Part shown: positions 6,383-62,497 of the stretch, piece by piece
How positions within the stretch are numbered: position 1 is the stretch's first letter
How the letters are laid out: every line of letters begins with the position of its first letter
Source of the DNA: Segetibacter aerophilus
GTDB taxonomy: Bacteria; Bacteroidota; Bacteroidia; Chitinophagales; Chitinophagaceae
Direction: 5' to 3'
Assembly (NCBI RefSeq): GCF_007991655.1
Contig: NZ_BJYT01000027.1
Location: forward strand, 1 to 64,000
DNA: 64,000 nt
The notes under the pieces: generated by a model
What the model was told of the DNA's origin: nothing
Database searches by the model: none
What the model saw: the letters and a program-made list of their open reading frames with translations, nothing else
Made by a program: the position numbers and the translations under genes

Positions 6383-6406
6383 GTACAAGTGAGTGACACA
6401 ACGATG
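6383..6406 (+). repeat. Interspersed palindromic element, copy 1
   Basis: GTACAAG, then AGTGACACAACGATG; T/A version of the palindrome. It lies between convergent genes. Confidence 0.75.
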
Positions 6407-6438
6407 TCGAATGGGGCGACGATGGCCGGCAACTAAAA

Positions 6439-6948
6439 CTACAAATACCGCTCCTTTAGAATATTTATGTGGTGAAGGATGTGACCAAAAACAACAAAGC
6501 AGATCGCAACCGTCGTGTTAGCATGGTCATTCGTTATCCCCGATTGTTGGAGGTGGCCGGGGGTGAAGCTTTTCAACAAAAGATCGGTAGATTTTCTTAC
6601 AGCCTCAAATTCCTCTAATAAACTTTGCCAGCTTCTCGCCGAAGCATTACTTGCTAAGGCATAAGCGCTTTCATCAAAACCAGGAAGCGGCGTCTTATCA
6701 TGTCTTGAAATTCTAAGAGCGCGATAGCCGAAAATTCTTTCTGTATCTATAATATGTTGCAGCATTTCTTTAATGCTCCATTTTCCTTCTGCATACTTAT
6801 AATCAACCTTCCCGGCAGGAATATTTTTGAAAAAATTGAGAATCTCTTTGCTATACCTTTCAACTGCTGCATCCACTGTTTCAGCATGAACGAGGTTAAT
6901 ATAATTCGCGAAATAAGGAGGATAGGTTCCTGCAGCTAGATCAGGCAT
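6439..6948 (-). CDS. DinB family protein (putative metal-dependent hydrolase fold)
   Basis: 169 residues. A four-helix DinB/YfiT-like bundle: the conserved His residues that bind a divalent metal are visible in MLQHIIDTERIFGYRALR and in the C-terminal GHILHHINILKERYL. Related proteins include bacillithiol transferases and mycothiol-dependent enzymes; the actual substrate cannot be told. The ATG follows the stop of the upstream subtilase gene by one base, so the two are co-transcribed and probably coupled in translation. Confidence 0.85.
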   Translation of the reverse strand: MPDLAAGTYPPYFANYINLVHAETVDAAVERYSKEILNFFKNIPAGKVDYKYAEGKWSIKEMLQHIIDTERIFGYRALRISRHDKTPLPGFDESAYALASNASARSWQSLLEEFEAVRKSTDLLLKSFTPGHLQQSGITNDHANTTVAICFVVFGHILHHINILKERYL

Positions 6949-6949
6949 A

Positions 6950-8635
6950 TTATTTTTTTACCGGAAGGTTTTTGAAGGTAGGTTTTGGTAGTATCTCTTT
7001 TTTAATTTCCTTTTTGTCAGGCTGTAAAGTCGTCGCTATTTTAACCGCAGCTAAAGCATTGATCAAGCCTCCTGATGTGCTTAATTCATTAAATGGAACA
7101 GTCTCTTTTGTTCCGGGCCGGGTTACTTTAAGGGCAGAATCCACGATAGCAGATTTTTCAATCACGTACTTAACCTGGCTTGCAGAAAGATCAGGAAAAT
7201 AAGACCGGATAACTGCAGCCACTCCTGCAACAACGGGAGAAGCCATACTTGTCCCCTTCAAAAATCCATATGTGCTTTTACCTGGTAGGGTAGAATATAT
7301 TTTTACGCCGGGTGCAAAAACATCGACGGTAGACTTGCCATAGTTGCTGAAATCAGCCACATAATCGCCACTTACTTTCGGATCGCTGCTCGCGCCTACT
7401 GTGATGAAGTTTGATGCTTTTCTATGCAAAACCTTCAATTCGGGATTAGGGAAATTGCCGGTGGTATCAGTGTTTTCTCCATCGTTTCCTGCTGCATGAA
7501 TAATTAAGACGTCTTTCAACTCAGCATACCTAACTGCATCGTCCACCCAATTTTTCTCTGGTGACAAGCCCTTGCCAAAACTCATGTTGATCACTTTCGC
7601 GCCGTTATCAACTGCATATTTAATTGCCAGCGCTATGTCTTTATCGTATTCATCACCATCAGGAACCGCCCTGATCATCATAACCTTTACATTCTGCGCA
7701 ACCCCATCAGCACCAATTCCGTTGTCTCGCTGAGCGCCGATAATTCCCGCCACGTGAGTACCGTGCATAGGCGAAGGACCCATCACATCGCTGTTACCGT
7801 AGAAGCGGTCGTTGATGTTTTTATAGTTGTCTTTTACTATCTCGGCGCGATAATTTTCTGGTGCTTTTTCTTTGGCGTCCTGGGCTCTCTTCTTTTCCTC
7901 AATATATTCCTCCAACTCCTTAAAAACGGTAGTATTTGTATCCTCGCTATCTATACCCGTCAGTTTTATAAAGTTGATGTACCCCAATTTCGCTCTTTGA
8001 GCAGCCGGAGTAGCCGCAGTAAATTTTTCCAGGTCAGCAACAGTAAAAGTGTCCTTTTTCATTTCATCCCGTAGCACCTTTTCATGCTTCTTAACAGCTT
8101 TGTAGGCCATCTCAAGAAACATCAGTTCCATCTGCTCTTCAGGTTTACCGATCACTATTTTAGATGCTTGTTTCCAAAGCTCATATTCCTCTTTGTCGTC
8201 GCCTGACAGGCTAGCCATGTCGAGAGTCTTATTGTCGAACTTGCTTTTGTATCGATGGTAAATGCGTGTTGCTTCAGCTGATTCAGTTTTTACATTCCGA
8301 CCATCTTTGCCACCTAAAAAGTTCCAACCGTATACGTCATCCACATAACCGTTACCGTCCTCGTCTTTGCCATTTCCGGGAATCTCCTTGGGATTTCTCC
8401 AAAGTATATTCTTAAGGTCTTCGTTAGTTGTATCAACGCCACTATCAATTACAGCAACAATTACCGGCTTGCTCTTTCTGCCCTTTAAAAAATCGTATGT
8501 TTTATTTATACTAATTCCATGAAAGCTATCGGAGGTAGCATCCTTTAAATGCCAGCCCTTGAGGGGATCTTGTCCGTAAACAATAGAAGAAATAGATATG
8601 AACCCTAACAGAAAAACTTTTTTCACACTATGCAT
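6950..8635 (-). CDS. S8 family (subtilisin-like) serine peptidase, secreted
   Basis: 561 residues with a signal peptide ending near Gly21-Gln22. Catalytic triad: Asp64 (AVIDSGVD), His291 (HGTHVAG) and Ser463 (GTSMASP), plus the oxyanion Asn384 (AAGNDGE). The Asp-to-His distance is ~227 residues instead of the usual ~30-40, because a charged, mostly helical insertion (about residues 112-275) lies between. After the conserved YVDDVYGWNFLGG this insertion is shared by a group of Bacteroidota subtilases. No C-terminal sorting domain is seen. Periplasmic or secreted; first gene of an operon with the DinB gene. Confidence 0.92.
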   Translation of the reverse strand: MHSVKKVFLLGFISISSIVYGQDPLKGWHLKDATSDSFHGISINKTYDFLKGRKSKPVIVAVIDSGVDTTNEDLKNILWRNPKEIPGNGKDEDGNGYVDDVYGWNFLGGKDGRNVKTESAEATRIYHRYKSKFDNKTLDMASLSGDDKEEYELWKQASKIVIGKPEEQMELMFLEMAYKAVKKHEKVLRDEMKKDTFTVADLEKFTAATPAAQRAKLGYINFIKLTGIDSEDTNTTVFKELEEYIEEKKRAQDAKEKAPENYRAEIVKDNYKNINDRFYGNSDVMGPSPMHGTHVAGIIGAQRDNGIGADGVAQNVKVMMIRAVPDGDEYDKDIALAIKYAVDNGAKVINMSFGKGLSPEKNWVDDAVRYAELKDVLIIHAAGNDGENTDTTGNFPNPELKVLHRKASNFITVGASSDPKVSGDYVADFSNYGKSTVDVFAPGVKIYSTLPGKSTYGFLKGTSMASPVVAGVAAVIRSYFPDLSASQVKYVIEKSAIVDSALKVTRPGTKETVPFNELSTSGGLINALAAVKIATTLQPDKKEIKKEILPKPTFKNLPVKK

Positions 8636-9013
8636 ATTAAACGATCGTATTTAGGAATATACAAATCTCTGCAAAGTTTTAATCAAAAAGAGGGGTATTT
8701 TAATTTTAGGAATTAATTATTAGGCAAGCGTTGGTGTCATCGATGTGGCTTCACTTGCGGCGCTCCGTTCATCGCTATCTTTTCAATTGTACTTTTTTTA
8801 AATCTCTCTGGCGGTTCCAAAAAGGTTTTAGTAGAAATTAAACTTCACCTGCATTTTTTAATTCCCCTGATTAACTCCAAATGATTTGATTCATTTAAAC
8901 TATTCATTATATTTCGAATACTATCCTTCAAAGAACATCTCAAGTTCAACAATCAGAGTCTCACGCAAAGTTTACCGAAACAATCTTACTAAGGCACCCT
9001 TAACAATCTTGAT
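8636..9013. other. Intergenic region between divergent genes
   Basis: 378 nt, AT-rich. It holds a degenerate copy of the interspersed element (8752-8796). No small open frame with coding character is visible on either strand. Confidence 0.6.
8752..8796 (-). repeat. Interspersed palindromic element, copy 2 (long form, degenerate)
   Basis: On the minus strand an AAAAGTACAA arm is followed after about 15 nt by GATGAACGGAGCGCCGCAAG. The inner GCGCCGC keeps its symmetry with C at the centre. Confidence 0.6.
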
Positions 9014-9895
9014 ATGAAATATTGTCTGGTTTCTATGTTTTCGCTACTGTTTTTGTGTTTTAGTAAATTGTCTTCAGGGCAGTATTACAACAACCTCTTT
9101 TCTTACGAGTTTGCAATAGGCGTGGGAGCCATGAATTGTATTACAGACATTGGAGGATCAAATAGCGACAAGACTTATTATGTCAACGAAATCAGGTTGA
9201 AGAACACAAAGCCCTCCTTCAGTATTTCTGCAGGAGCGATGTATCAAAATCTACTTGGACTAAGATTAGAAGGCACTTGGGGAGCAGTTCAATCGGCAGA
9301 TCGCGACATTGATGGAACGTCAGTAAACGCGAAGTCGAAGACGGTAAGAAATCTTAGTTTTAGAAGTAAGATTTCCGAGGTTAGCCTGCTTGCCGAATTC
9401 CACCCGCTTTTATTGTTTGACTATAAATATCCGCCTTTATGGTCTCCATACGTTATTGCGGGAGTCGGCATTTTTTCATTCAAACCGCAAGCTCTATTAC
9501 ACAACGACTATATTGACTTGCCGCCGCTCTGTACGGAAGGCCAGGGGTTTTTTGAATACAGAGACTCGAAGCCATATTCGACCACACAGTTTAATATTCC
9601 TGTAGGTATTGGCCTTAGATACGAGGCTTCTGACGCTGTCAATCTTAGGCTTGAGTTTAGTCACCGTATTCTCTTTACTGATTATCTCGACGATGCTCAT
9701 AGCCCCGGTTTTGTCGACGCAGAAATCTTTAGACAATATCTCGATGTCGCTAACGCAGGTAACGCCCAACAATTATATAACAGGAGTTTAGATGGCTTGG
9801 TTCCGGCAAGGAGAGGTAATCCCGGAAACAATGATGCTTATATGTCGATCTCCTTTAAAGTAGGATTGGTGCTAAGAAGAAAAGCACGGTATTAG
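9014..9895 (+). CDS. DUF6089-type outer membrane beta-barrel protein
   Basis: 293 residues with a signal peptide ending around Ser22-Gly-Gln. The mature protein has alternating hydrophobic strands, an early G-x-M-N-x-x-x-D-I-G element, and a late RLEFSHRILFTDYLDD motif, which is what I associate with DUF6089 proteins of Bacteroidota. It probably forms a small beta-barrel in the outer membrane; function unknown. Its TAG stop overlaps the stop codon of the convergent gene by four bases. Confidence 0.7.
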   Translation: MKYCLVSMFSLLFLCFSKLSSGQYYNNLFSYEFAIGVGAMNCITDIGGSNSDKTYYVNEIRLKNTKPSFSISAGAMYQNLLGLRLEGTWGAVQSADRDIDGTSVNAKSKTVRNLSFRSKISEVSLLAEFHPLLLFDYKYPPLWSPYVIAGVGIFSFKPQALLHNDYIDLPPLCTEGQGFFEYRDSKPYSTTQFNIPVGIGLRYEASDAVNLRLEFSHRILFTDYLDDAHSPGFVDAEIFRQYLDVANAGNAQQLYNRSLDGLVPARRGNPGNNDAYMSISFKVGLVLRRKARY

Positions 9896-10491
9896 AAACA
9901 GTAGCCAACAGAAAGCCAAACCTGCACATCTATGTAACCCTTAGCATCGTCATATGGGTTCAATCGTTTTGGATGTATATACCGTCCATACCCGAGGCTA
10001 CCTTGCACGTCTATAACTATGTTGCTTTTTGTGAAGTATGCGAAGCCTACAGAGCCTCCTCCCCTAATCGAATTGGCATGAAAGTCTCTCGAGGAAATGC
10101 CGAAAAAACCAGTGTTATTTACGGTCCCTTGATTTACTATGTTTCTTTTTAACGTGCCTAGATAAACGCCGGCGTATCGGTTCACCTCACGGTATTGTAG
10201 TTCAGTAAAATATTTTTTCGTCCTTAGCAGAAATCCATTGAAGTCGTAGTGGTCAGCAAGTATAAAATTCTCAAAAGTTCCTTGTACAAAAGATCCTTCT
10301 AGTGTAACAGTGCTGGTTAGCGCTTTCTCTATAGAAAGTGTCGGCCTTTTGAAAAAAGCGTTTAAGAGATTTGTCTTAACCATAACCCTCTTTGTTAGCG
10401 GCCTTGTGCTTTGTGCCTGGGATGAAAGCAAGACAATTAAACCCAGAATAAGAAGGCCTAAAATTTTTTGATAGGGCATGAGGTTCAGCAT
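9892..10491 (-). CDS. DUF3575-like outer membrane protein
   Basis: 199 residues, signal peptide with cleavage likely after SSQAQ. The body shows amphipathic strands and ends in the aromatic VSVGYCF-type C-terminus common to outer membrane barrels (here WLSVGYCF). The KTNLLNAFFKRPTLSIEKAL segment resembles the start of DUF3575 barrels. Function unknown. It is convergent with, and overlaps by 4 nt, the DUF6089-type gene, so the two share a TTAG tetranucleotide as stops. Confidence 0.6.
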   Translation of the reverse strand: MLNLMPYQKILGLLILGLIVLLSSQAQSTRPLTKRVMVKTNLLNAFFKRPTLSIEKALTSTVTLEGSFVQGTFENFILADHYDFNGFLLRTKKYFTELQYREVNRYAGVYLGTLKRNIVNQGTVNNTGFFGISSRDFHANSIRGGGSVGFAYFTKSNIVIDVQGSLGYGRYIHPKRLNPYDDAKGYIDVQVWLSVGYCF

Positions 10492-10698
10492 TTTGAAGAG
10501 CGATAATGATGAATAGAACTAGTAAGATCTATCAACATAGACGTTAGAAAGTATTTACAGTTGCTTGCTTGAAATGGTCAACTGTCTAAACGAAAGAATA
10601 CCGATAAAAGAAATGGAACAAGTAACAGTACCAACCTCTTTTATTTTTTAAATTTGAGTTGTGGAGGGATAAGATAAATATTATTTTAAAACACGATT

Positions 10699-10977
10699 AT
10701 GCCAACACTACATCTGCTAATAAAAGGAAAAGTGCAGGGCGTCTTTTACAGGGCTACAGCAAAAGAAATCGCCAACGAACTAGGTATAACGGGATGGATA
10801 AAAAACACAAATGAAGGTGATGTGGAAGCCGTTGTAACAGGAAGCCAAGATCAATTGCAAGCGTTTGCCACTTGGTGCAGAACTGGTCCGGAAAGAGCAA
10901 ATGTATCAGAAGTAATTTCCGAAGAAGTGAAAGAAGAAAAGTTTAAAGATTTCTCCGTTATAAGGCAAAGAGTTTGA
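10699..10977 (+). CDS. acyP: Acylphosphatase
   Basis: 92 residues, the usual length of the family. The signature GKVQGVFYRATAKE supplies the phosphate-binding loop and catalytic Arg; GWIKNTNEGDVEAVVTG holds the second motif with the catalytic Asn. It hydrolyses acyl phosphates such as acetyl phosphate and carbamoyl phosphate in the cytoplasm. Monocistronic by position. Confidence 0.93.
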   Translation: MPTLHLLIKGKVQGVFYRATAKEIANELGITGWIKNTNEGDVEAVVTGSQDQLQAFATWCRTGPERANVSEVISEEVKEEKFKDFSVIRQRV

Positions 10978-11047
10978 CCGGTTTCGCCTAAAATATTGCT
11001 AGCAGAACTTTTCCGCTTTTTCAGAAAGCCTAATAGAATCATTAAAA

Positions 11048-11067
11048 GTACAAGGGTGCGACGCAAC
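11048..11067 (+). repeat. Interspersed palindromic element, copy 3
   Basis: GTACAAGGG then TGCGACGCAAC; C/G version. It lies between convergent acyP and the BI-1 gene. Confidence 0.75.
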
Positions 11068-11112
11068 AAAAGCAGAAAATATACACTAGTGCTTGAATCC
11101 AAATAAAAGAAA

Positions 11113-11137
11113 AGCCGAACCTTTAACAGGTCCGGCT
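11113..11137 (-). terminator. Intrinsic terminator of the BI-1 family gene
   Basis: Arms AGCCGAACCT and AGGTCCGGCT (one mismatch) with a 5-nt loop, followed on the minus strand by TTTTCTTTTATTT. Confidence 0.75.
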
Positions 11138-11163
11138 ATAAAAACTTTTAATTTTTTTCGATA

Positions 11164-11931
11164 CTAGTCTCTGCTACCAAGTCTGCTTAACAACTTAAGC
11201 ATCTCGACATACAACCATACGATAGTAACCATCAGTGCAAACGCGCAATACCATTCCATGTATTTAGGAGCGCCCATTTCTGCACCTTGTTCTATCATGT
11301 CAAAATCTATGATCAGGTTTAAGGCTGCAATGGCCACCACAAACAGGCTGATACCTATTCCAAGCATGCTTCCGTTGCCCATCATCATGAAGTCCATGCG
11401 AACTCCGAACATACTTACAATCCACGTGATGAGGTAAAAAATAGCGATACCCGCAGTTGCCGTCAAAAGAATAGATTTAAACCTTTGAGTTGGCCTGATG
11501 ATGCGGAAGTTGTACAACAAGAACATTGCTACAGCCACCCCAAGTGTTAGCCCTACAGACTGAATCACAATTCCCGGGTACTTCTTCGCAAACATTTCGT
11601 TTACTATTGCGGAAATAGCCCCGATAAAAAGACCTTCGAGCAAGCCGTATAGTGGCGCCAGGTAAGGTGCCCACGTTTGCTTAAAGCTAATAACAAGAGC
11701 GGTAATTAAGCCTCCAAAAACGCCCACCATCATTAGGGGCATCATGGTTTGAGCCTTGCCCTGGTAGTATAAGTGCCATGTAAAAGCGGCGCCGGCAATA
11801 ACCATTAAAAAAAGAAAACCAAACTTGTTCATTGCTCCCCGCGCAGTCATCACACCTTGTTGCTGATCTGAGACCGTTGTATTAAAAATCTTCGCTGATA
11901 ACGTCGGATTTCCTGATTTAAAAAGTGCCAT
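11164..11931 (-). CDS. Bax inhibitor-1/YccA family membrane protein
   Basis: 255 residues with about seven transmembrane segments from residue 35 on. Conserved C-terminal region LNLIIDFDMIEQGAEMGAPK carries the paired Asp residues of the BI-1 pH-sensing calcium-leak pore. The family (also called YbhL/YccA/TMBIM) gives inner-membrane proteins of ion-leak or protease-modulating function. This version, with a ~30-residue hydrophilic N-terminus, is the form common in Bacteroidota. Divergent from korA. Confidence 0.9.
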   Translation of the reverse strand: MALFKSGNPTLSAKIFNTTVSDQQQGVMTARGAMNKFGFLFLMVIAGAAFTWHLYYQGKAQTMMPLMMVGVFGGLITALVISFKQTWAPYLAPLYGLLEGLFIGAISAIVNEMFAKKYPGIVIQSVGLTLGVAVAMFLLYNFRIIRPTQRFKSILLTATAGIAIFYLITWIVSMFGVRMDFMMMGNGSMLGIGISLFVVAIAALNLIIDFDMIEQGAEMGAPKYMEWYCAFALMVTIVWLYVEMLKLLSRLGSRD

Positions 11932-12088
11932 TTCTATTGATTTTTGTTTTAGTAAAATTCAATAACAAATATAAATAAGTCCTTGTTATCGTATTGAAAA
12001 AGTTAGCGTGTTTAGGCTCTTTTTCAGCTAGTCAAACCCACTTTTGAGGGCCGTTTAAAATCACTTTTAATGCTACTCTTAGTTGTAG

Positions 12089-12096
12089 TACTTTTG
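12089..12096 (+). promoter_or_regulatory. Putative -7 box for korA
   Basis: TACTTTTG matches the Bacteroidota TAnnTTTG box and lies 37 nt before the ATG. No clear TTG -33 box is seen. Confidence 0.45.
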
Positions 12097-12133
12097 TAAA
12101 ATTGCTTAAATTGTACGACAATAAGTTTTAAAA

Positions 12134-13987
12134 ATGATTACTACAGAAGAAGTTTTACAGGACGTAGTTATAAAGTTTGCAGGCGATAGCGGAGATGGAA
12201 TGCAGTTGACTGGAAGCCAGTTTACCAACAACACCGCGATGCTCGGTATTGATCTTGCCACCTTTCCCGATTTCCCTGCTGAGATACGTGCGCCAATAGG
12301 TACTCTACCGGGTGTGAGTGGCTTTCAATTACACTTTAGCAGCAACAGAATTTTTACGCCGGGCGATGATTGTGATGTACTGGTGGCAATGAATGCGGCG
12401 GCTTTGAAAGTAAATGTAAAAAACCTAAAAAAGGGCGGGAAAATAATAGTCAATACCGATGGTTTTGATGCAAGAAATTTGAGACTTGCCAACTATCCTG
12501 ACGGGATAAACCCACTTGAAGATGAAAGCCTGACCAATTATGAAGTCATAAAAATAGATGTGACTAAACTTACCCGTGAAGCACTGAAAGATTTCGAAAT
12601 GGGTACGAAAGAAAAAGACCGTGCAAAGAACATGTTCGTACTCGGCTTTTTGTACTGGATGTATAACCGCAACATGGACAACACCATCAACTTTTTAACA
12701 GAGAAGTTTGGCAAGAAAGACACCATTTTGCAGAGTAACATTAAGGCACTTCAAGCTGGCTATAATTACGCTGATACTACCGAAACTTTCACAACCCGTT
12801 TTAGTGTTGAGAAAGCCAGGATGGTGAAGGGTAACTACCGCAACATCATGGGTAACCAGGCGTTGAGCTATGGATTAATTGCGGCCAGCCAAAAAAGTGG
12901 TTTGCAACTATTTTTAGGTTCATACCCTATTACCCCCGCTTCCGACATTTTGCATGAATTAAGCAAGCATAAGGCGTTTGGAATTAAAACTTTCCAGGCG
13001 GAGGATGAGATCGCTGCGATTACGTCAGCAATTGGAGCGAGTTATGGAGGCTCTTTAGGTGTGACCACCACATCAGGACCGGGCATGGCCTTGAAGGCTG
13101 AAGCCATGGGACTAGCAATTATGCTCGAAATTCCTTTATTGATCATAAACGTTCAAAGGGGTGGACCGTCTACCGGCCTGCCAACAAAAACCGAACAAAG
13201 TGATTTGCTACAGGCATACTACGGCAGAAATGGGGAAAGTCCGATGCCTGTTATTTCAGCGTCTACGCCGAGTGACTGTTTCGGCGCTGTGTACGAAGCG
13301 GTAAGAATTGCAGTTCAACATATGACGCCTGTTATTTTGCTAAGCGATGGTTTTATTGCAAATGGTTCTGAACCGTGGAAGTTTCCAAAGAGTGATGATT
13401 TGCACAAGATTGAGGTGAAGTTTAAGACAGAGCTTGGGGACCATGAAGAAAAATTTCAGCCCTACCTGCGCGACGAGAAACTAGTTCGTCCCTGGGCTAT
13501 TCCCGGAACTGCCGGTTTGGAACATCGGGTGGGTGGTATTGAAAAGCAAAATATAACGGGTAATGTCAGCTACGATCCCGACAACCACCAACTGATGGTG
13601 AAAATAAGAGAAGAGAAAGTTGAGAAAATAGCTCAGTTCATTCCTGAACAGAAGTTAGACAACGGACTGGAAAAAGGCAAGGTGCTAATCTTAGGTTGGG
13701 GAAGTACGTATGGCGCTATCAAAAGTGCCGTGAATGAATTGCTCGCTGAAGGATACGAAGTTGCTCATGCACACTTACGTTATGTGCGGCCTTTTCCAAA
13801 AAACCTTGGAGACATTTTGAAGAACTATGAACACGTATTAATCCCCGAAATAAACAACGGCCAGTTAATTAAAATTATCAGGGACAAGTTCTTGATAGAT
13901 GCCAAAGGTTATAACAAGATAATGGGAATACCCATTACCAAAGGTGAGATCATAGATGAGGTGAAAAAGATAATTGAGGAAGAATAA
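12134..13987 (+). CDS. korA: 2-oxoacid:ferredoxin oxidoreductase, fused gamma-alpha subunit
   Basis: 617 residues. N-terminal part (to ~185) is the gamma domain (FAGDSGDGMQLTGSQF, FPAEIRAPIG), followed by the alpha/pyrimidine-binding domain (SYPITPASDILHELS, TTSGPGMALKAEA, QRGGPSTGLPTKTEQSDLL) and the C-terminal domain II (HLRYVRPFP). The enzyme decarboxylates 2-oxoglutarate or a similar oxoacid to the acyl-CoA and reduces ferredoxin. The TPP-binding beta subunit (korB, ~340 residues) is needed for activity and normally follows directly, but here a strong terminator follows within 15 nt. Confidence 0.93.
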   Translation: MITTEEVLQDVVIKFAGDSGDGMQLTGSQFTNNTAMLGIDLATFPDFPAEIRAPIGTLPGVSGFQLHFSSNRIFTPGDDCDVLVAMNAAALKVNVKNLKKGGKIIVNTDGFDARNLRLANYPDGINPLEDESLTNYEVIKIDVTKLTREALKDFEMGTKEKDRAKNMFVLGFLYWMYNRNMDNTINFLTEKFGKKDTILQSNIKALQAGYNYADTTETFTTRFSVEKARMVKGNYRNIMGNQALSYGLIAASQKSGLQLFLGSYPITPASDILHELSKHKAFGIKTFQAEDEIAAITSAIGASYGGSLGVTTTSGPGMALKAEAMGLAIMLEIPLLIINVQRGGPSTGLPTKTEQSDLLQAYYGRNGESPMPVISASTPSDCFGAVYEAVRIAVQHMTPVILLSDGFIANGSEPWKFPKSDDLHKIEVKFKTELGDHEEKFQPYLRDEKLVRPWAIPGTAGLEHRVGGIEKQNITGNVSYDPDNHQLMVKIREEKVEKIAQFIPEQKLDNGLEKGKVLILGWGSTYGAIKSAVNELLAEGYEVAHAHLRYVRPFPKNLGDILKNYEHVLIPEINNGQLIKIIRDKFLIDAKGYNKIMGIPITKGEIIDEVKKIIEEE

Positions 13988-13998
13988 TTTTTTCTCAT

Positions 13999-17507: not shown

Positions 17508-17556
17508 GGTTTTAAAAAAGAACTATTATTTGCCGCCACAGTATAAACTTCCTCGA

Positions 17557-17580
17557 CATCGTTGTGTCACTCACTTCAAC
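17557..17580 (-). repeat. Interspersed palindromic element, copy 4
   Basis: On the minus strand GTTGAAGTG then AGTGACACAACGATG; T/A version. Left member of an inverted pair. Confidence 0.75.
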
Positions 17581-17795
17581 TGCCTTTTCTTTTGTCACCA
17601 ATCAAGTCTTCAATTCGCATTAAGAATATAGGCAAGCTTACAGTCGACAATTAAGGAAGATTCAAGGCAACTTTACGAAACAACAAAAATTGTTTTAAAA
17701 ACCCTCAAAGTAAAAGTTGGCAGGCTAGCTGTCTTTATTTAAGAAAGACAACCCCTATGATACTTAAGTAAAAGACTGCTAATTAAAAAACATAA

Positions 17796-17819
17796 GTACA
17801 AGTAAGTAACACAACACTG
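17796..17819 (+). repeat. Interspersed palindromic element, copy 5
   Basis: GTACAAGTA then AGTAACACAACACTG; T/A version with one centre-proximal change. Right member of an inverted pair with 17557-17580. Confidence 0.7.
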
Positions 17820-17848
17820 CCAGGAGAAGCTCATGTGCGGTAAACAAA

Positions 17849-17875
17849 AAAACTTCCTGAAAAGCAGGAAGTTTT
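17849..17875 (-). terminator. Intrinsic terminator of the padR-pspC operon
   Basis: Arms AAAACTTCCTG / CAGGAAGTTTT with a 5-nt loop and a T7 run on the minus strand. A second hairpin (AGGGCTC 17885-17891 with GAGCCCT 17910-17916) precedes it. Confidence 0.85.
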
Positions 17876-20554: not shown

Positions 20555-21177
20555 AACCGGAGTTTTTTGCGACTTCCCTTTTAGTCTTAGGGCAAGTCTT
20601 TTTATTATTAAATTTTTTCTGGTTCTACTATTTCTCTTTGTTGATCATCGTTGTGTCACTCAGTTGTACTTGTATCTGTTGGTTCTGCTCCTGCTTTCGC
20701 CGCTAGTCGTTAATCGTCAATCGCTAGTTGTGGTCATACTTAATCGCGATTTAACACTCCAATTCTACTCGCGACTTTCGATTTCCGACTTCCGATTCTT
20801 TTTCCTCACTTCCCTTCCGCTCTCAATTTCTCCATCAACTATACAAAGATGCAGCTTTTTCTAGTACTATGCAATATAAAGTACCTAATTTTTTTTAGTA
20901 GCAGGCATCCGGCATTAGTAGTTATAGCACGAAAGTCAATACTAGCAAGGTTTTTAGAAGAAAAAGCCTCAAACGGAAAAATTACGCAAAGTGATGAACG
21001 GCAAAATAAAGGGATGAAAAAACAGTTTGGAGTATTTAAACATAAAGAGGTTCCTTTTTTGAAGGAAGTAGGGTGCTTTTGAAGTAACAAGTAGGGATGG
21101 AACTGTTTTTTAAGTAAGAACGTTAAACATCATAATTATCGTTGTTTTGATTTTTCACCTTAAAAACAATCATACTA
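20555..21177. other. Long intergenic region with element copy and degenerate short-period repeats
   Basis: 623 nt between divergent genes. It contains an element copy (20641-20673), a CTAG-bounded stretch of repeated TCGTTAATCG-like units (20701-20730) and an imperfect 7-8 nt repeat of the GACTTTCGATTTCC type (20771-20798). Open frames here have no coding character. Confidence 0.6.
20641..20673 (-). repeat. Interspersed palindromic element, copy 6
   Basis: On the minus strand ACAAGTACAACTG, then AGTGACACAACGATGATCAA; T/A version, one of the best preserved right ends. Confidence 0.75.
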
Positions 21178-24908: not shown

Positions 24909-24988
24909 ATGGGTATATGCGGCACACTAATTTTTTGTTTTAAACCTTTTGAGCATAATTATTCGATTTGCCAAATGGAGAAAAGCCT

Positions 24989-25010
24989 GTACAAGAGTGC
25001 GACGCAACGA
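24989..25010 (+). repeat. Interspersed palindromic element, copy 7
   Basis: GTACAAGAG then TGCGACGCAACGA; C/G version. It lies inside the carboxylase operon between the biotin carboxylase and pccB genes. Confidence 0.75.
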
Positions 25011-25058
25011 CGTTAATGGTAGCGCTACAGTTTGGACAATTATTGTACATTTTTTTTT

Positions 25059-28156: not shown

Positions 28157-28227
28157 GTTTTAGAGAGATTAAAAAACTACAAGTGTTGTTGAGATATTAT
28201 TATGTTACCGGCTATCCAACTTCGATG

Positions 28228-28256
28228 GTTCATCGTTGCGACGCATTACGTTCGAC
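28228..28256 (-). repeat. Interspersed palindromic element, copy 8 (long form)
   Basis: On the minus strand GTCGAACG, TA, ATGCGTCGCAACGATGAAC; C/G version with T at the centre. Confidence 0.7.
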
Positions 28257-28335
28257 TGTTGTAATCAATGCAACTATCTCTGGACCGTCAGTAATAAAAA
28301 TTGATGATTATATCCTTGTCAGAACGGAAAGAAAA

Positions 28336-31260: not shown

Positions 31261-31308
31261 CAGACTTTAGTTTTGATTGATTTTAAGATACCAGCCAAAT
31301 AACTCCGA

Positions 31309-31357
31309 TTGATCATTCTTGCGACGCATTTCGTTCATCAGCATCTCTTTTATGTAC
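31309..31357 (-). repeat. Interspersed palindromic element, copy 9 (long form)
   Basis: On the minus strand TGTACA, about 14 nt, GATGAACGAA, then ATGCGTCGCAAGAATGATCAA; C/G version. Between convergent genes. Confidence 0.75.
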
Positions 31358-31385
31358 ATTTCAAATTCCCAAAACTTAATTGCTA

Positions 31386-33908: not shown

Positions 33909-34306
33909 AGATGAAGTTTTTTAAATAGTTGTTCTTGCTGTAGAGACAAAGCCGTAAATACGTTCAATATCGCTATTGGGGTGCGAAACTAAAGGATTTT
34001 TATAAAGCATCCTAAAGAAGCCTTTCGCCTTAATACAATTGTTTAATAACGACTACGGTATTGATGTTTTTAAGAGAAATATTAGCAATTGGCAATAAGG
34101 CGACGCCATAAAAAGATGCCGTACAAGGGTGTGACACAACAGGAGTTATATTGAAACACCAATGCCGGCCTCGTAAGAAAGCATATCTTATACATCTCAT
34201 ATAAAACTTAGCTTATAACCTTTTTGTTTGTTAATTAAACCTCACACCTATCTTAATCATCAAATGCTACTTGATATCTTTGTTTCATCTTAACGAGCAT
34301 GCGCAC
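33909..34306. other. Intergenic region between divergent genes
   Basis: 398 nt. Contains an element copy at 34121-34140 and a weak fragment resembling the long-form arm (CGTTCAATATCGCTATT, about 33962). No gene seen. Confidence 0.55.
34121..34140 (+). repeat. Interspersed palindromic element, copy 10
   Basis: GTACAAGGG then TGTGACACAAC; T/A version with the full 9-bp palindrome. Confidence 0.8.
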
Positions 34307-36173: not shown

Positions 36174-36237
36174 CAATCGAATTGCGGGAGACGATGCCGT
36201 AATTTTTTTATTAACCCGGCAGTTAGTTATCAAGCAG

Positions 36238-36263
36238 CATTGTTGCGTCGCATTTCGTTCATC
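36238..36263 (-). repeat. Interspersed palindromic element, copy 11 (long form)
   Basis: On the minus strand GATGAACGAA then ATGCGACGCAACAATG; C/G version. Between convergent genes. Confidence 0.75.
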
Positions 36264-36316
36264 CAAATATCGCTATTCTGCTTCTTGCAGTATTTGCCCT
36301 AAAAAGCATTAAAGCT

Positions 36317-41639: not shown

Positions 41640-41760
41640 AAAAGACCATTTCACTTTAGAGTTCTAGAAGCACCGATTAGCTGAAACTAACATGACCATT
41701 TGCCGCTTTTGGTAAAAACTGCCTAAATACATCATTAGAAGAATAAATTTTTTTCAATGC

Positions 41761-52110: not shown

Positions 52111-52177
52111 TGCAAGGACTTTTAAGTGGTATAAGGGTTAAGGAAGATTTTTGGAACAACATTTAAGCTACGATCGA

Positions 52178-52208
52178 CATTCATTGCGTCGCACTCTTCT
52201 ACTTTTAA
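52178..52208 (-). repeat. Interspersed palindromic element, copy 12
   Basis: On the minus strand AAAAGTAGAAGAG then TGCGACGCAATGAATG; C/G version; left member of an inverted pair. Confidence 0.75.
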
Positions 52209-52287
52209 TTTCTACTCATCGCGGCTCGGCCATATTGGCAAACTCACCTTTTGAAAAGAATACAATAATGCCCAATAAAGGTTTAAA

Positions 52288-52311
52288 GTACAAGAGAGTG
52301 ACACAACGATG
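52288..52311 (+). repeat. Interspersed palindromic element, copy 13
   Basis: GTACAAGAG then AGTGACACAACGATG; T/A version; right member of the inverted pair with 52178-52208. Confidence 0.8.
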
Positions 52312-52345
52312 TATCATAGTATTCGTGAAGCTAAGTACAAAAACA

Positions 52346-55347: not shown

Positions 55348-55405
55348 TGTTATGATTATCTTGGTTGTAAAACTACTTATTCTAGTAAGCAAAAAACAGA
55401 AACTA

Positions 55406-56053: not shown

Positions 56054-56122
56054 ATCGAGAACTGGAAAAATCGGCCCTTACACTTCCATATTGTCAAAAT
56101 AAATGATGAGTAAAACAATAGC

Positions 56123-56929
56123 ATGAATTTTCCTATTGCTTTTGAAGTAGGGTCTTACGAAATATTGCTACACACAATACTCGAATCTGCAAGCTATTTT
56201 ATCGGCTTTCGTTATTTTTTGTATTTGCGAAAAAAGCAGGGTGACACTATTAATACATCCAATAGAATTTGGATATTGATTGCTTGCATATTCGGTTCAC
56301 TTGCCGGGAGCAGACTTTTAGGTGGACTGGAAGATATTTCAGGTCTTCAGGCTGCCATTAATAAACCTCAATACTTCTATCAGAATAAAACGGTGTTGGG
56401 TGGTTTGCTGGGCGGGCTGGTTGTGGTGGAGCTGGTAAAGAAAATTATAAAAGAAAAACATTCTTCCGGCGACCTGATTACTTACCCGTTTATTCTTGCA
56501 TTGATTATCGGCAGAATAGGATGCTTTAGTATGGGCATATATGAAGAAACGTACGGAGAACCAACTTCATTTCCATGGGGAATGGATCTCGGGGATGGCC
56601 TTAGCCGTCATCCCGTATGTTTATATGAAATCGCCTTTCTCGGCTTTCTTTGGATGAGCCTGGTTCAACTGGAGAAGAAATACATTTTAGCAGATGGGGC
56701 AAGGTTTAAAATATTTATGATAGCCTATCTCTCTTTCAGGCTGTTGCTTGATTTTATTAAACCGCATTACACTTTCAATATCGGTCTATCTACTATTCAA
56801 ATAGCTTCCTTGTTCGGCTTGTTTTACTATGCTTATGACATTATTCATCCGCGACAGTTACTGGAAAGAACCAGGTGGGAAACAATACATAGTAGCACTT
56901 CGGATGAACGGATTGCAACGCAACGATGA
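56123..56929 (+). CDS. Divergent prolipoprotein diacylglyceryl transferase (Lgt) homologue
   Basis: 268 residues, about seven helices. The Lgt fold is evident from GRIGCF (Arg131), SRHPVCLYE and FRLLLDF, but the catalytic His of the FHGGL motif is Leu92 (KTVLGGLLGG) and the essential Asn of GRxGNFxNG is Cys134, with Met where the second Asn should be. So lipoprotein diacylglyceryl transfer is doubtful; a different lipid reaction is likely. The operon continues with a radical SAM enzyme and a small membrane protein. The last residues, SDERIATQR, and the TGA stop are encoded by a copy of the interspersed element. Confidence 0.85.
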   Translation: MNFPIAFEVGSYEILLHTILESASYFIGFRYFLYLRKKQGDTINTSNRIWILIACIFGSLAGSRLLGGLEDISGLQAAINKPQYFYQNKTVLGGLLGGLVVVELVKKIIKEKHSSGDLITYPFILALIIGRIGCFSMGIYEETYGEPTSFPWGMDLGDGLSRHPVCLYEIAFLGFLWMSLVQLEKKYILADGARFKIFMIAYLSFRLLLDFIKPHYTFNIGLSTIQIASLFGLFYYAYDIIHPRQLLERTRWETIHSSTSDERIATQR

Positions 56930-56934
56930 TCAAC
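56903..56934 (+). repeat. Interspersed palindromic element, copy 14 (long form), overlaps lgt-like 3' end
   Basis: GATGAACGGA then TTGCAACGCAACGATGATCAA; C/G version with one change next to the centre. It encodes the C-terminus and stop of the Lgt homologue. Confidence 0.75.
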
Positions 56935-56972
56935 AATGAATACAATGCTGGTACCCAAAAATAAAATTCACC

Positions 56973-58400: not shown

Positions 58401-58650
58401 GTTCTGGCAAGCAGTCTTGATTAACGTTGCTATAGTGTATGCATTAGCACTTTTTACCCTCGGCTTTGGTGACAGTTCGGGCTTATTAATAATTCCTATA
58501 TTTCTTTCTGTAATGGAGTTTTTCCTCTCTATACCCTTCCTGGTTGTTGAAAAAAGCAGGAATGCCGGTAAAGTGATGATGGCTGCTGCAGGCATTATTT
58601 TTCTGATTGGGCTCGGAGTATGTACAGTGATACCTTTTAGACTAGAGTAG
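58393..58650 (+). CDS. Small membrane protein coupled to the radical SAM gene
   Basis: 85 residues with three hydrophobic segments (LINVAIVYALALFTLGF, GLLIIPIFLSVMEFFLSIPFLVV, VMMAAAGIIFLIGLGVCTVI) and short charged loops. Its ATG overlaps the radical SAM stop by 8 nt (ATGAATAA), so translation is coupled. Unknown family. It may anchor the cytosolic enzyme or its substrate at the membrane (inference). Confidence 0.7.
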   Translation: MNKFWQAVLINVAIVYALALFTLGFGDSSGLLIIPIFLSVMEFFLSIPFLVVEKSRNAGKVMMAAAGIIFLIGLGVCTVIPFRLE

Positions 58651-58687
58651 ATTTTGTGGGAGCAAACAGCGGTACTCAGATTAAAAA

Positions 58688-58709
58688 TTCTTGCGACGCT
58701 CCGTTCAAC
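58688..58709 (-). repeat. Interspersed palindromic element, copy 15 (long form, degenerate)
   Basis: On the minus strand GTTGAACGG then AGCGTCGCAAGAA; C/G version. Between convergent genes. Confidence 0.65.
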
Positions 58710-58732
58710 TTTTAGTAATGCTATATCCCGTT

Positions 58733-59455
58733 TTAGGCCTTAACCGCGTACTGCATCATCTGCAAAATCAAATCAGGGTCAGGACAATTTTCAAGGTATT
58801 TTTCTTTTTGCGAATATCTGCATACCCCTGGATAATCGCCCCTCTTTTCATACATCTCAGTTACTATTTGAAAGTGCAGGTGTGCCGGCCAATAACCGTT
58901 CTCCTTCGGTGGGCCAAAGTGAGCAAACTCTACACCCCGGCTTATGTAGTGGCCTTCCTGTATCCCTTCAATATCCCTTAAGCTTAGATGCCCGTAAAGT
59001 GTGTTGAATGAGACACCTTCCAACTGGTGATGTAAGATTATGGTAGCGCCATAATCACCGAAAAAATCATTGAAACTAAAGCTGTGTACATAGCCACCTA
59101 GTGGTGCAAAAATGGGTGTGCCAACGGGACCCCATACGTCTATACCAAGATGAAGGCGACGCGGCTCTTCACCCTTATCAAACCTGCTGCTGCGGGAATA
59201 GATGGTGCGATGTTCTGCATAACCACCTATTCCGTATTTGTATTTCGTGCCCAACTGCTGTTCTATGTATTTGGCAAAAGCATCCGTGTTAGCTAATATA
59301 TGATCGGTGAGCGTGGTGTTATTTGCAGTAAAGTCAAGCTGAAGCAAAGAGTCCCTTGTTGCGTCAAAAGGCACCACGTTATGAAAAGCCCCAGCATTTT
59401 TATACAACGCATTCTGTAAAGGAGTAGGTGTCATTTTACTTGAGCTTAGAACCAT
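58733..59455 (-). CDS. M23 family metallopeptidase (LytM-type)
   Basis: 240 residues without an obvious signal peptide. Zinc ligands: HLGIDVWGPVGTPIFAPLGG (H-x3-D), GHLSLRD and HLHFQIV (HxH). LytM-like enzymes cut peptidoglycan cross-links or activate amidases. The N-terminal ~90 residues are not recognised. Its ATG is directly adjacent to the leuS stop (no gap), so the two genes are on one transcript. Confidence 0.85.
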   Translation of the reverse strand: MVLSSSKMTPTPLQNALYKNAGAFHNVVPFDATRDSLLQLDFTANNTTLTDHILANTDAFAKYIEQQLGTKYKYGIGGYAEHRTIYSRSSRFDKGEEPRRLHLGIDVWGPVGTPIFAPLGGYVHSFSFNDFFGDYGATIILHHQLEGVSFNTLYGHLSLRDIEGIQEGHYISRGVEFAHFGPPKENGYWPAHLHFQIVTEMYEKRGDYPGVCRYSQKEKYLENCPDPDLILQMMQYAVKA

Positions 59456-62230
59456 TTAAATAACCACATTGATCATTCTACCTTTTACAAATATGATTTT
59501 TTTAGGTGCTTTTCCCTCCAACCATTTTTGTACAATTTCGTTTGCAACGACAATCTGTTCAACCTCCGGTTGCGCTGCGTCCAATGAGATGTTGATGTTC
59601 GTTCTATGCTTCCCATTGATACTAACAGGGTATTCTTTGCTGCTTTCAACAAGGTACTTTTCTTCGAATTTTGGAAAAGCTGCATCAAGCACACTTCCTT
59701 CATTCCCCAGTAATTTCCAGAGTTCTTCTGAAACATGTGGAGCGTAAGATGTAAGTAAAATCAACAGAGGTTGAAGAACTTCTTTTTTACGAGACTTTAG
59801 ATCATTCAATTCGTTTACACACACCATGAAAGCACTGACAGCAGTATTGAAGCTAAAACGTTCTGTGTCTTCTTCAATTTTCTTAATCGTTCTATGCAAA
59901 ACTTTTAGTTCAGCTGGTGTAGCAGCGTCATTAGTTACAATTAAGCCTTTTGTCTCGTCTACAAATAGTCTCCAGAACTTCCTTAAGAAGCGATGGACAC
60001 CTTCAATCCCTTTTGTATCCCACGGTTTACTTTGCTCGACGGGACCAAGAAACATCTCATACATGCGGAAGGTGTCAGCACCATACCGTTCTACAATTTC
60101 GTCAGGGTTGACTACGTTGTATTTTGATTTGGACATCTTTTCTACTTCAGCCCCGCAGACGTATTTGCCGTCTTCTAAGATGAACTCAGCTTTTTCATAT
60201 TCCGGGCGCGAGTTTTTGAATGACTCAATGTCTAATTCGAGACCATCAACCAACCCAACATGAACATGGACTTTATCGGTCTCATACTGATCGATCAGCC
60301 CAGCAGATACAAATTGATTTGAGCTCTTTATTCTATAAACAAACCTAGAACTTCCCTGTATCATCCCCTGGTTAACCAACTTCTTATAAGGCTCTTCATG
60401 TCCTATATAACCTAAGTCAAACAAAACCTTTGTCCATAACCGGCTGTACAATAAATGGCCAACCGCGTGCTCCGTGCCGCCAATGTATAAGTCAACCTGG
60501 TTCCAATAGTCCGTCGCTTTTCTGTCGGCGAAGGCCTGCTCGTTTTGTGGATCCATGTACCGAAGGAAATACCATGATGAACCGGCATATCCCGGCATTG
60601 TATTCGCTTCGCGGGTTCCGCCGCCTGGTGCTATTATCCAATCAGCAAGATTAGCCAACGGACCTTCACCTTCAGGGCCGGCACTATATGTATCAACATA
60701 AGGAAGTTCAACTGGCAAATGACCTTCGTCTAAAGCAAACGCAACACCGCCCTTATAAACAATCGGAAATGGTTCACCCCAATAGCGCTGACGGCTGAAG
60801 CCAGCATCTCTCATTCGATAATTGACCTGGCGTTTACCAATGCCCATTTCCTCGAGCTTGTCAATTACTACATTTATGGCGTCTCTCATGACCATCCCAT
60901 CCAGGAAGTCCGAGTTCTGTAAGATGGCGTCTTTTGTTGGATTTGCCTCCTCGCCATTAAAAGCTTCACCAATAATATTTGTAATAGGAATATTGAAGTG
61001 CTTTGCAAAAGCAAAGTCACGCTGGTCGCCACAAGGAACAGCCATAATAGCCCCAGTACCGTAACCAGCTAACACATACTCAGAGATCCAAATAGGAATT
61101 TCACGACCATCAAAAGGATTGATTGCATAAGCCCCCGTGAAAGCGCCAGTGATGGATTTCACCTCCGCAAGCCGCTCTCTTTCGCTGCGGGATTTTACGT
61201 ATTCCAGGTATTTGGAGATTTCGTCTTTTTGTTGAAAACTCGTTATGTCGCTAACCATTTCGTGTTCAGGAGCCACTACCATAAAATCAACTCCAAACAT
61301 AGTATCCGGCCTGGTAGTATAGACAACCATTTGTTCTACTTCCCCCTTTTCACTTTTCACTTTAAACCTCACTTCCGCGCCCTGGCTCTTCCCGATCCAG
61401 TTCCTTTGCATCTCCTTCATCGAGTCGCTAAAGTCTACCTGCTCCAATCCCTGCAATAATCTATCGGCATATTCAGTGATCCTAAGATACCATTGCCGCA
61501 TCTTCTTTTTTACTACCGGATGCCCGCCTCGTTCGCTTACGCCATTTACCACCTCGTCGTTGGCAAGTACGGTTCCTAAAGCTTCGCACCAGTTTACTTC
61601 ACCAAAGGCAGAGAAGGCAAGGCGGTAATCCATCAGGATTTCCTGCTGTCTCTGGTTGTCGAATCCGCTCCATTCTTCTGCTATAAACTGAAGCTTCCTG
61701 TCGCCGGGACATTCATTGGTGACATTTCCTTCTTTTTCGAAAATCCCTTCTAAAACATTGATACGTTCAGCCTTTTGACTTTTGCGATTGTACCAGCTAT
61801 CAAACAATTGAAGAAAGATCCATTGTGTCCACTTGTAGTACTTAGGGTCGCTAGTTCTAACCTCTCGGCTCCAGTCATAGCAGAAGCCGATGTTATCTAA
61901 TTGCTCTTTGTAGCGTGCTATATTTTTTTCGGTGGTTACAGCAGGATGTTGTCCTGTCTCCAACGCATACTGTTCTGCCGGCAGACCAAAGCTGTCAAAG
62001 CCCATGGGGTGTAACACGTTGTAACCTTTCAGTCTTTTGAACCTTGCATAGATATCACTGGCTATATAGCCTAGCGGGTGGCCCACATGCAGACCTGCGC
62101 CACTTGGATAAGGGAACATATCCAATACATAAAACTTTGGCTTATCGCTCTCGTTGCTTACTCTATAAGCACCGCTATCTCTCCATTGCTGCTGCCACCT
62201 TTTTTCTATTTCTCTAAAGTTGTATTCCAT
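59456..62230 (-). CDS. leuS: Leucyl-tRNA synthetase
   Basis: 924 residues, class I synthetase. HIGH box HVGHPLGY (48-54), editing CP1 domain with TTRPDTMFGVDFMVVAPEH, CGDQRDFAFA, and zinc-less SGSSWYFLRY-like AGSSWYFLRYMDP, KMSKS box VEKMSKSKYN near 700, anticodon-binding and C-terminal domains. Length is that of Bacteroidota LeuS. Essential. Divergent from ftsX across a 444-nt spacer. Confidence 0.96.
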   Translation of the reverse strand: MEYNFREIEKRWQQQWRDSGAYRVSNESDKPKFYVLDMFPYPSGAGLHVGHPLGYIASDIYARFKRLKGYNVLHPMGFDSFGLPAEQYALETGQHPAVTTEKNIARYKEQLDNIGFCYDWSREVRTSDPKYYKWTQWIFLQLFDSWYNRKSQKAERINVLEGIFEKEGNVTNECPGDRKLQFIAEEWSGFDNQRQQEILMDYRLAFSAFGEVNWCEALGTVLANDEVVNGVSERGGHPVVKKKMRQWYLRITEYADRLLQGLEQVDFSDSMKEMQRNWIGKSQGAEVRFKVKSEKGEVEQMVVYTTRPDTMFGVDFMVVAPEHEMVSDITSFQQKDEISKYLEYVKSRSERERLAEVKSITGAFTGAYAINPFDGREIPIWISEYVLAGYGTGAIMAVPCGDQRDFAFAKHFNIPITNIIGEAFNGEEANPTKDAILQNSDFLDGMVMRDAINVVIDKLEEMGIGKRQVNYRMRDAGFSRQRYWGEPFPIVYKGGVAFALDEGHLPVELPYVDTYSAGPEGEGPLANLADWIIAPGGGTREANTMPGYAGSSWYFLRYMDPQNEQAFADRKATDYWNQVDLYIGGTEHAVGHLLYSRLWTKVLFDLGYIGHEEPYKKLVNQGMIQGSSRFVYRIKSSNQFVSAGLIDQYETDKVHVHVGLVDGLELDIESFKNSRPEYEKAEFILEDGKYVCGAEVEKMSKSKYNVVNPDEIVERYGADTFRMYEMFLGPVEQSKPWDTKGIEGVHRFLRKFWRLFVDETKGLIVTNDAATPAELKVLHRTIKKIEEDTERFSFNTAVSAFMVCVNELNDLKSRKKEVLQPLLILLTSYAPHVSEELWKLLGNEGSVLDAAFPKFEEKYLVESSKEYPVSINGKHRTNINISLDAAQPEVEQIVVANEIVQKWLEGKAPKKIIFVKGRMINVVI

Positions 62231-62472
62231 GGTTGTTGATATAAGGTATAGGGTTTAAGGTGTTGGGTTTAAGGAAAACCTTACTTCAGTCTTTGCAACC
62301 AGCCCTTCTACTTTTATATTTTTTACTTCTGTTTTTTTACTGCTTTAAACCAGCCTGCCTGTGATTCTAGCGGCGTAATTAACGTTAAGCATTCTTGAGT
62401 GCTACAGGTTTCCTCCCCTACGCCTTCTACCCTACACCTTACACCTTCTCCTACGTTGAGGCAATTTCAAAA

Positions 62473-62497
62473 GTACAAGTGTGCGACGCAACGAACG
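62473..62497 (+). repeat. Interspersed palindromic element, copy 16
   Basis: GTACAAGTG then TGCGACGCAACGAACG; C/G version. Confidence 0.8.

Follow-up and report, generated by a model that had tools for sequence, protein, structure and literature searches.

The best-studied short dispersed repeats of bacteria are the repetitive extragenic palindromic (REP) sequences driven by REP-associated tyrosine transposases (RAYTs); miniature inverted-repeat transposable elements (MITEs), such as the Correia or ERIC elements, are likewise short, dispersed and non-coding. REPINs (REP doublets forming hairpins) have a doublet structure. Here we describe an interspersed element that recurs along 64,000 nt of the Segetibacter aerophilus genome (contig NZ_BJYT01000027.1, positions 1 to 64,000; hereafter the window). 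It is an intergenic DNA element of ~76 bp (76 letters), of which the motif noticed in a preliminary description of this DNA, built on a GTACAAG arm, is the core. The element is real and family-wide. That description knew no published name for it; none was found in the literature searched, nor was any account of it, so that it is apparently undescribed. Neighboring copies less than ~3 kb apart are mostly opposite in orientation, and we know of no described bacterial repeat, in the literature searched or elsewhere, that follows such an alternation rule across genes.

The element shares the short, dispersed, non-coding habit of MITEs but has no terminal inverted repeats within a copy, and no consistent target duplication was found among 351 copies. 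It resembles REP sequences, as these are presented in PMC2817692 and PMC6006769, in being short, intergenic, present in hundreds of copies and often arranged in inverted pairs, but differs in having no GTAG/GTGG foot, no hairpin of the usual size and no tie to a Y1 transposase, and in measuring ~76 bp versus 20-40 bp. The CGTC-tagged palindromic repeats of PMC3733652 are also dispersed and have likewise been reported from Bacteroidetes, and no dedicated enzyme is given for them in that account; the element, however, has no CGTC tag and its center is just 7 bp. Members of bacterial interspersed mosaic elements (BIMEs), as outlined in PMC2817692, alternate in orientation as the element does, but inside one composite structure, whereas the element alternates across genes, over 0.6-3 kb; the regular close spacing of BIMEs within one intergenic cluster was not seen, spacings between copies running from 16 bp to many kb. 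Inverted doublets recall the REPINs to which PMC3116915 is devoted, but the spacers of element pairs are unrelated, at 16-463 bp, and their halves are of independent type.

Copies in whole genomes were counted with the pattern GTACAAGNNNGYGACRCAACGATG at ≤3 mismatches on both strands, with the reversed pattern as control; the pattern was derived from the S. aerophilus genome (G000; 5.89 Mb, 79 contigs), and counts in relatives may be underestimates. S. aerophilus has 521 matches (266 and 255 on the two strands) versus 0 for the reversed pattern. In a 464-kb sample of the genome (the window plus 400 kb more), a position-weight matrix (cut-off ≥16 bits) found 55 copies versus 0 in reversed DNA. 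A hidden Markov model (HMM) built from copies (cut-off E≤0.01) gave 62 matches in the same sample, ~1 per 7.5 kb, which extrapolates to ~790 per genome; density in the window exceeds the genome average. The motif is thus commoner than chance. The preliminary description's estimate of over a thousand copies per genome was too high for S. aerophilus itself, and fits a relative, G001 (589 and 544 matches on the two strands).

All 16 starts listed in that description carry the motif and all 16 copies are supported. Fourteen were recovered directly by the HMM and the 17796 copy by the matrix (37.5 bits); the 8752 copy was missed by the HMM in the window but has copies at the aligned place in two relatives syntenic with much of the window, G006 (18.0 bits) and G009 (12.5 bits), whose coding identities to it are 0.821 and 0.789. 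Two further candidates had been offered as decayed copies: 48419 has weak support in a G009 counterpart of 18.1 bits at the edge of an aligned block, and 62293 gave no HMM match. The copies in the window, with their HMM scores in bits, are as follows.

6364..6439, + strand: copy with core of the AGTGACAC type; HMM 35.3 bits; same place in G006 and G009.
8717..8792, - strand: copy with the GGAGCGCCGC variant; supported by its sequence, with counterparts in G006 and G009.
11029..11104, + strand: copy of the TGCGACGC type, adjoining a terminator-like hairpin that belongs to the next gene; HMM 30.3; same place in G006, G009, G005 and G001.
17524..17599, - strand: left-hand copy in a head-to-head pair; HMM 25.4; same place in G006 and G009.
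17777..17852, + strand: copy, right half of the pair begun at 17524..17599; position-weight matrix 37.5 bits; same place in G006 and G009 (block edge).
20613..20688, - strand: copy; HMM 25.2; same place in G006 and G009.
24970..25045, + strand: copy; HMM 32.1; same place in G006.
28198..28275, - strand: long-form copy with 2 additional bases; HMM 23.6; same place in G006.
31281..31358, - strand: copy, long form; HMM 18.7; same place in G006.
34102..34177, + strand: copy of the TGTGACAC mixed type; HMM 28.9; G006 copy ≤7 bp off the expected place, beyond the block edge, with diverged flanks.
36205..36282, - strand: copy, long form; HMM 18.7; G006 counterpart of 10.6 bits.
52146..52221, - strand: left-hand copy in a head-to-head pair; HMM 32.6; same place in G006.
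52269..52344, + strand: copy, right half of the pair begun at 52146..52221, G006 synteny breaking between the halves; HMM 35.9; same place in G009.
56884..56961, + strand: copy, long form, overlapping the 3' end of the open reading frame (ORF) 56123-56929; HMM 21.6; outside synteny.
58653..58728, - strand: copy with the GGAGCGTCGC variant; HMM 27.6; same place in G006.
62454..62529, + strand: copy; HMM 34.8; same place in G006 and G009.

The orientation of neighboring copies is far from random. Among copies less than 600 bp apart, 36 of 40 pairs lie head to head, with their GTACAAG ends facing, 4 lie tail to tail and none are on the same strand; the sequences of their spacers are unrelated. 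Of the intervals above 600 bp in long stretches, 102 of 135 separate neighbors on opposite strands (p = 2e-9). Alternation was found in 110/127 intervals in named loci (p = 7e-18), in 105/132 in 516 kb of G001 and G005, an independent sample drawn later as a test (p = 5e-12), and in 141/201 in G164, a one-contig genome from another genus (p = 1e-8). Counts for the S. aerophilus sample and the earlier sets include two window copies added by hand.

The effect declines with distance. Listed in turn for the own sample, the remaining long stretches from the genus, the new G001 and G005 sample and the named loci, the alternating intervals at 600-3000 bp were 19/19, 16/20, 57/66 and 51/57 (strand-permutation p = 0.0005, 0.015, 0.0005 and 0.0005); at 3-6 kb they were 9/15, 19/26, 17/31 and 24/34 (p = 0.39, 0.04, 0.77 and 0.15), and beyond 6 kb 12/22, 11/16, 5/9 and 1/2. 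Put the other way, same-strand neighbors in the four sets numbered 1/77 below 600 bp, 19/162 at 0.6-3 kb, 37/106 at 3-6 kb and 20/49 beyond. The rule is weaker in G164, where copies are densest: 41/42 intervals alternate below 600 bp, 76/113 at 0.6-3 kb, and 103/163 when gene-free pairs are left aside. With one gene between them, same-strand pairs were 3/46 and 5/34 in the genus and named sets and 21/78 in G164. Head-to-head arrangement accounts for 61 of the gene-free pairs, tail-to-tail for 12 and same-strand for 1; the G164 counts are 34, 4 and 0, respectively. The core types of pair partners are independent of each other.

Two simple schemes for this arrangement were rejected. Independent left and right slots in every gap would make same-strand pairs with one gene between no less than twice as frequent as head-to-head ones; the counts were 3:25, 5:18 and 21:24. 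Bracketing of operons ('+ genes -') looked plausible in the first sets, where 36/45 two- and three-gene intervals were unidirectional, and was not replicated in the new one (16/27). Some pair spacers contain other repeats: certain head-to-head pairs (L023, L111, L149, L191, L120) have a different palindromic repeat, of the CGTCATTGCGAGGAGGAACGACGAAGCAATCTG type, between their halves, and a separate repeat beginning CGTCATTGCG occurs inside some spacers.

The anatomy of the element was drawn from 351 distinct copies, 83 from S. aerophilus and the remainder from relatives. Conservation sets its limits at -19 to ~+56, counted from the G of GTACAAG. From 5' to 3' it consists of a G[GC]TGAATA-like block (the consensus opens with GCTGAATA...), an A-rich stretch, the core GTACAAGNGWGYGACRCAACGATG, a loose TTGAATAG-like block and TGCYGGnnACAAAAA; the outer blocks shift by 1-2 nt among copies. 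The center is 7 bp, GYGACRC. Two main core types, distinguished by bases 9 and 15, account for 178 (AGTGACAC) and 154 (TGCGACGC) copies, with 18 mixtures. Core bases 11 and 15, the second and sixth of the center, form a Watson-Crick pair in 349/351 copies (T-A in 183, C-G in 166; 2 exceptions), with no T-G wobble in the 351. An indel-aware alignment of 446 copies showed no Watson-Crick covariation of note beyond this single coupled pair, and none between the two element ends, so terminal inverted repeats are absent within one copy. The division into a short and a long form made by the preliminary description was sound, the long form having two additional bases between the 5' hexamer and the center. 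Genome-specific variants also occur: copies in G016 often read ...CAACCGTG and those in G013 ...CAACGAAA. At six loci (L096, L115, L257, L249, L170, L122) a longer hairpin replaces or interrupts the 7-bp center, just before AACGATG (or AACAATG). Extended hairpins were rejected as a general stand-in for the center, the stem lengths of the 67 candidates scored being not above those at control offsets.

Genes were called with a simple purpose-written script, a non-standard caller, on which all gene-overlap figures rest. Called genes contain none of the 55 copies in the S. aerophilus sample, which is 83.5% coding, and 12 of 763 in four larger HMM sets (2/151, 4/171, 2/239 and 4/202), so the proposed intergenic bias holds. 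By type of gap, 15 of the 55 copies are convergent, 9 divergent and 31 tandem (14 with the genes, 17 against); relative to the share of bases in gaps ≥60 bp, convergent gaps hold 15/55 versus 15% and divergent gaps 9/55 versus 27%. Copy orientation shows no evident link to gene direction among the 55. Such use of all three kinds of gap, with no orientation to genes, agrees with the earlier view that these are not simple terminators. In gaps with a single copy the element's 3' end is nearer its gene in 71/119, and strand counts are balanced within genomes, as the figures for S. aerophilus and G001 illustrate. The 56903 copy, which is outside the set of 55, overlaps the last codons of ORF 56123-56929, apparently supplying its stop codon. 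Some 62 kb on contig C1 and 61 kb on C2 of S. aerophilus are without confident copies (C1:100.5-162.9 kb and C2:100-161 kb; L036-L039, L041-L044); these copy-free stretches lie beside dense ones and are possibly acquired islands.

Comparison with relatives shows that copies keep their places. Each of the 14 comparable window copies is matched in place by one in G006, a relative at ~80% DNA identity, 13 of them in aligned blocks; the counterpart of the 34121 copy lies ≤7 bp from its expected place, beyond a block edge. The 52288 copy, at a synteny break, and the 56903 copy, outside synteny, are not comparable with G006. Eight window copies have G009 counterparts, 7 in aligned blocks and 1 at an edge; for the 52193 and 58700 copies there is no copy at the nearest G009 position, which itself lies outside aligned blocks. 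At BLAST-alignable places, to which the core identities apply, the center is identical at 81/84 positions in G006 (12 copies counted of 13 aligned, positions within called genes being excluded) and 48/49 in G009 (7 copies), i.e., 96-98%. The corresponding figures are 75/84 and 44/49 for GTACAAG and 73/84 and 43/49 for AACGATG, and identity is 0.770 (G006) and 0.746 (G009) in other aligned intergenic DNA and just 0.63 in both for element positions +24 to +39. The core is thus held while the remainder of the element drifts, a constraint compatible with selection as well as with conversion between copies.

Individual places show both persistence and change. The 11048 place has a copy in S. aerophilus, G006, G009, G005 and G001, and is interrupted in G003; its core is of the TGCGACGC type in the first three genomes and of the AGTGACAC type in G005 and G001. 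Nearby, the two-gene block at 11164-13987 has inward-pointing flanking copies in G001, G005 and G009; in S. aerophilus and G006 it is fused to the next block, with a copy-free junction. Inspection by eye showed no relic of copies between the genes at 13987 and 14056; in G009 these genes are on separate contigs, with a copy on either side. The 17580/17796 pair varies in width, its halves being separated by 216 bp in the window, by 132 bp in G009 and by 2.4 kb in G006. The G006 interval (C54:25312-27736; L237) contains an ORF that looks aminotransferase-like by eye.

The element occurs across much of the host family. R1, a sequence-only model from 60 S. aerophilus copies, matches 94/147 family genomes in 67/100 genera; the other 53/147 have no match under stricter filters, which drop weak matches, and with at most 32 candidates scored in any genome, R1 counts of 32 are lower bounds. 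In an order-wide sample 10/119 genomes match, 8 from the host family and 2 from other families with one match each. Among the 80 of 112 core-bearing stretches listed are Segetibacter, Ferruginibacter, Pinibacter, Foetidibacter, unclassified Chitinophagaceae, and Bacteroidetes or Sphingobacteriales assemblies. The element is hardly present outside the host family, which the named contigs indicate is Chitinophagaceae. Pattern counts within the genus range from 4 (G008, with 0 HMM matches in 78 kb) through 105 (G007) to 1133 (G001); G164 has 202 copies in 400 kb, ~1 per 2 kb, versus 0 for the reversed control. Five stretches of a viral collection also carry the pattern.

Conserved places, a conserved core and alternating neighbors together suggest an ancient mobile repeat with copies that now have some purpose. 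On balance, the element is probably an old, family-specific, non-autonomous mobile repeat of ~76 bp, copies of which have been retained as DNA sites recognized by a protein. A putative enzyme would have copied it into intergenic DNA hundreds to thousands of times; the long, information-rich consensus shared by so many sites, along with the genome-specific variants, points to spread by copying, and copy numbers of 4-1133 in one genus, the density in G164 and those variants are as copying would leave. In the window region, as compared among three related genomes, the copies have since stayed put by vertical inheritance, with the core, chiefly the 7-bp center, near constant while its surroundings drift. 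A predicted protein may read the center as a double-stranded palindrome or tiny hairpin, a paired form being indicated because its second and sixth bases change together, and the copies would now act as DNA sites. The likeliest causes of alternation are loss of same-strand pairs, or origin as head-to-head pairs that were separated later by insertions in the spacer, of which the 17580/17796 pair, with its halves 216 bp apart in the window and 2.4 kb in G006, may be an example; a function requiring opposite partners could also be responsible.

Several observations weigh against this reading. One G006 copy (15.2 bits) in an aligned block, facing window position 41669, and three more at block edges have no window counterpart, so copies are gained or lost. 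The constraint on the core could be gene conversion among copies and not selection. Species differ in core type at the 11048 place, where repeated insertion at one spot is therefore also possible; G007, G002 and G004 have no copy there, and no clean empty site was aligned at the junction. Birth of pairs as identical inverted duplicates was rejected, the core types of partners being independent. As to mobility, no consistent target-site duplication appears in the 351 copies, the best single pair of 480 reaching z 3.6, although end positions vary by 1-2 nt. Neither a transposase nor any other enzyme could be linked to the element. No transposase-like family stands out among the proteins in element-flanked intervals, inspected by eye with no domain search, and the same inspection yielded no autonomous parent element.

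The preliminary description had raised a chromosome-organizing protein site as one possibility. Such a site, organizing or insulating, would consist of oriented anchors in which opposite pairs within ~3 kb cooperate (in looping, domain borders, or gyrase or transcription barriers), so that alternation is selected; we regard this as unlikely, though worth serious consideration. The constrained core, the fixed positions, alternation within 3 kb in five sets, intergenic placement independent of gene direction, and the mild convergent excess and divergent deficit (15/55 versus 15% and 9/55 versus 27%) are all in keeping with it. On the other hand, the element is dispensable, given counts of 4-1133 within one genus and 53/147 family genomes with no match; operon bracketing failed in the new set (16/27 unidirectional); and stretches of 61-62 kb have no confident copies. 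No candidate for a protein bound to such sites was found. Rather less probable is the specific picture of a lattice of hundreds to thousands of directional sites, alternating mostly within ~3 kb, that would reflect either a candidate protein pairing opposite neighbors, as an analogue of boundaries or loop anchors, or the footprint of a genome-wide recombinase removing close same-strand pairs. The copies as sites of a site-specific recombinase, with same-strand neighbors deleted together with the DNA between them and opposite ones surviving, is an explanation we doubt more strongly. It would account for the rise of same-strand neighbors with distance (1/77, 19/162, 37/106 and 20/49), and a small coupled center between asymmetric arms would suit it, as would the synteny break and the 2.4-kb length difference inside two head-to-head pairs and the relocation in G006 of a 435-bp window segment beside the 52288 copy, in opposite orientation to its former neighbors. 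However, no inter-copy interval is inverted within collinear blocks between the window and G006 or G009, same-strand neighbors at 0.6-3 kb number 37/113 in G164, the excess of head-to-head over tail-to-tail pairs (61 versus 12; 34 versus 4 in G164) is left unexplained, and no recombinase was identified.

The other possibility raised at the outset, a REP-like mobile repeat, fits in habit, the element being dispersed, intergenic and multi-copy, on both strands and in local inverted pairs, but not in its link to Y1 transposases. Mobilization by a RAYT (Y1/HUH) transposase is largely refuted and very improbable. In ten genomes of a single genus, Y1 counts are unrelated to pattern counts: G007 has 105 copies and 0 Y1 matches, G008 4 and 7, and G001 1133 and 2, of which one has three stops and the other scores 27 bits. 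PMC2817692 describes RAYT genes as always flanked by two inverted REPs. At 30 Y1 loci (of 31 matches), with flanks of up to 1.5 kb per side, 20 were copy-free, 10 had at least one copy and 3 had copies on both sides, two of these in G001, where copies are dense; flanking of the transposase gene by two inverted copies was thus not the rule. One Y1 ORF of S. aerophilus (contig C4; L081 1-2093, ORF 1105-1683, minus strand) carries NHIH, WQ and YMHNNP, motifs close to those of RAYT subclass 2.6 as characterized in PMC6006769. It lies amid five copies of another repeat, of 160 nt with a 31-nt palindrome CTCCGTAGTCGTCCTTCGGAACACTACGGAG, although one copy of the ~76-bp element is ~400 bp away; this Y1 gene and the 160-nt repeat are likely a separate REP family. 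Nor does the element have a GTAG/GTGG head with a long imperfect palindrome or a REP-sized hairpin: its consensus has GTAC..., a 7-bp center and one coupled pair.

A DNA-uptake sequence, kept by biased uptake in transformation, would be found on both strands in many copies with a core kept while flanks drift, as here, and is nonetheless most improbable: the copies are excluded from genes (0/55, 12/763) and alternate, and the literature searched offered nothing of the kind for Bacteroidetes. Known uptake sequences are much shorter than the ~76-bp element and occur inside genes too. A structured RNA, riboswitch or terminator was rejected and has hardly any chance of being correct. Some copies do adjoin terminator-like hairpins, and folding is slightly more stable in windows over the core than around it (+10..+49: mean -4.9 forward and -5.4 reverse versus ~-4 kcal/mol). 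However, the 446 aligned copies have a single pair and no helix, wobble is absent, and orientation bears no relation to genes; in 40-nt windows around 342 copies, hairpins are not in excess beside the element and only slightly so over the core, and Rfam at gathering scores found tRNA alone in the window and nothing for the element.

The element thus occurs through a good part of a large family, shows no sign of a link to RAYTs and keeps its core at fixed places where this can be tested. Its orientation rule is measurable from sequence alone and is therefore directly testable. Alternation implies a protein that pairs the sites, a recombinase that sorts them, or copies that arise as inverted pairs.

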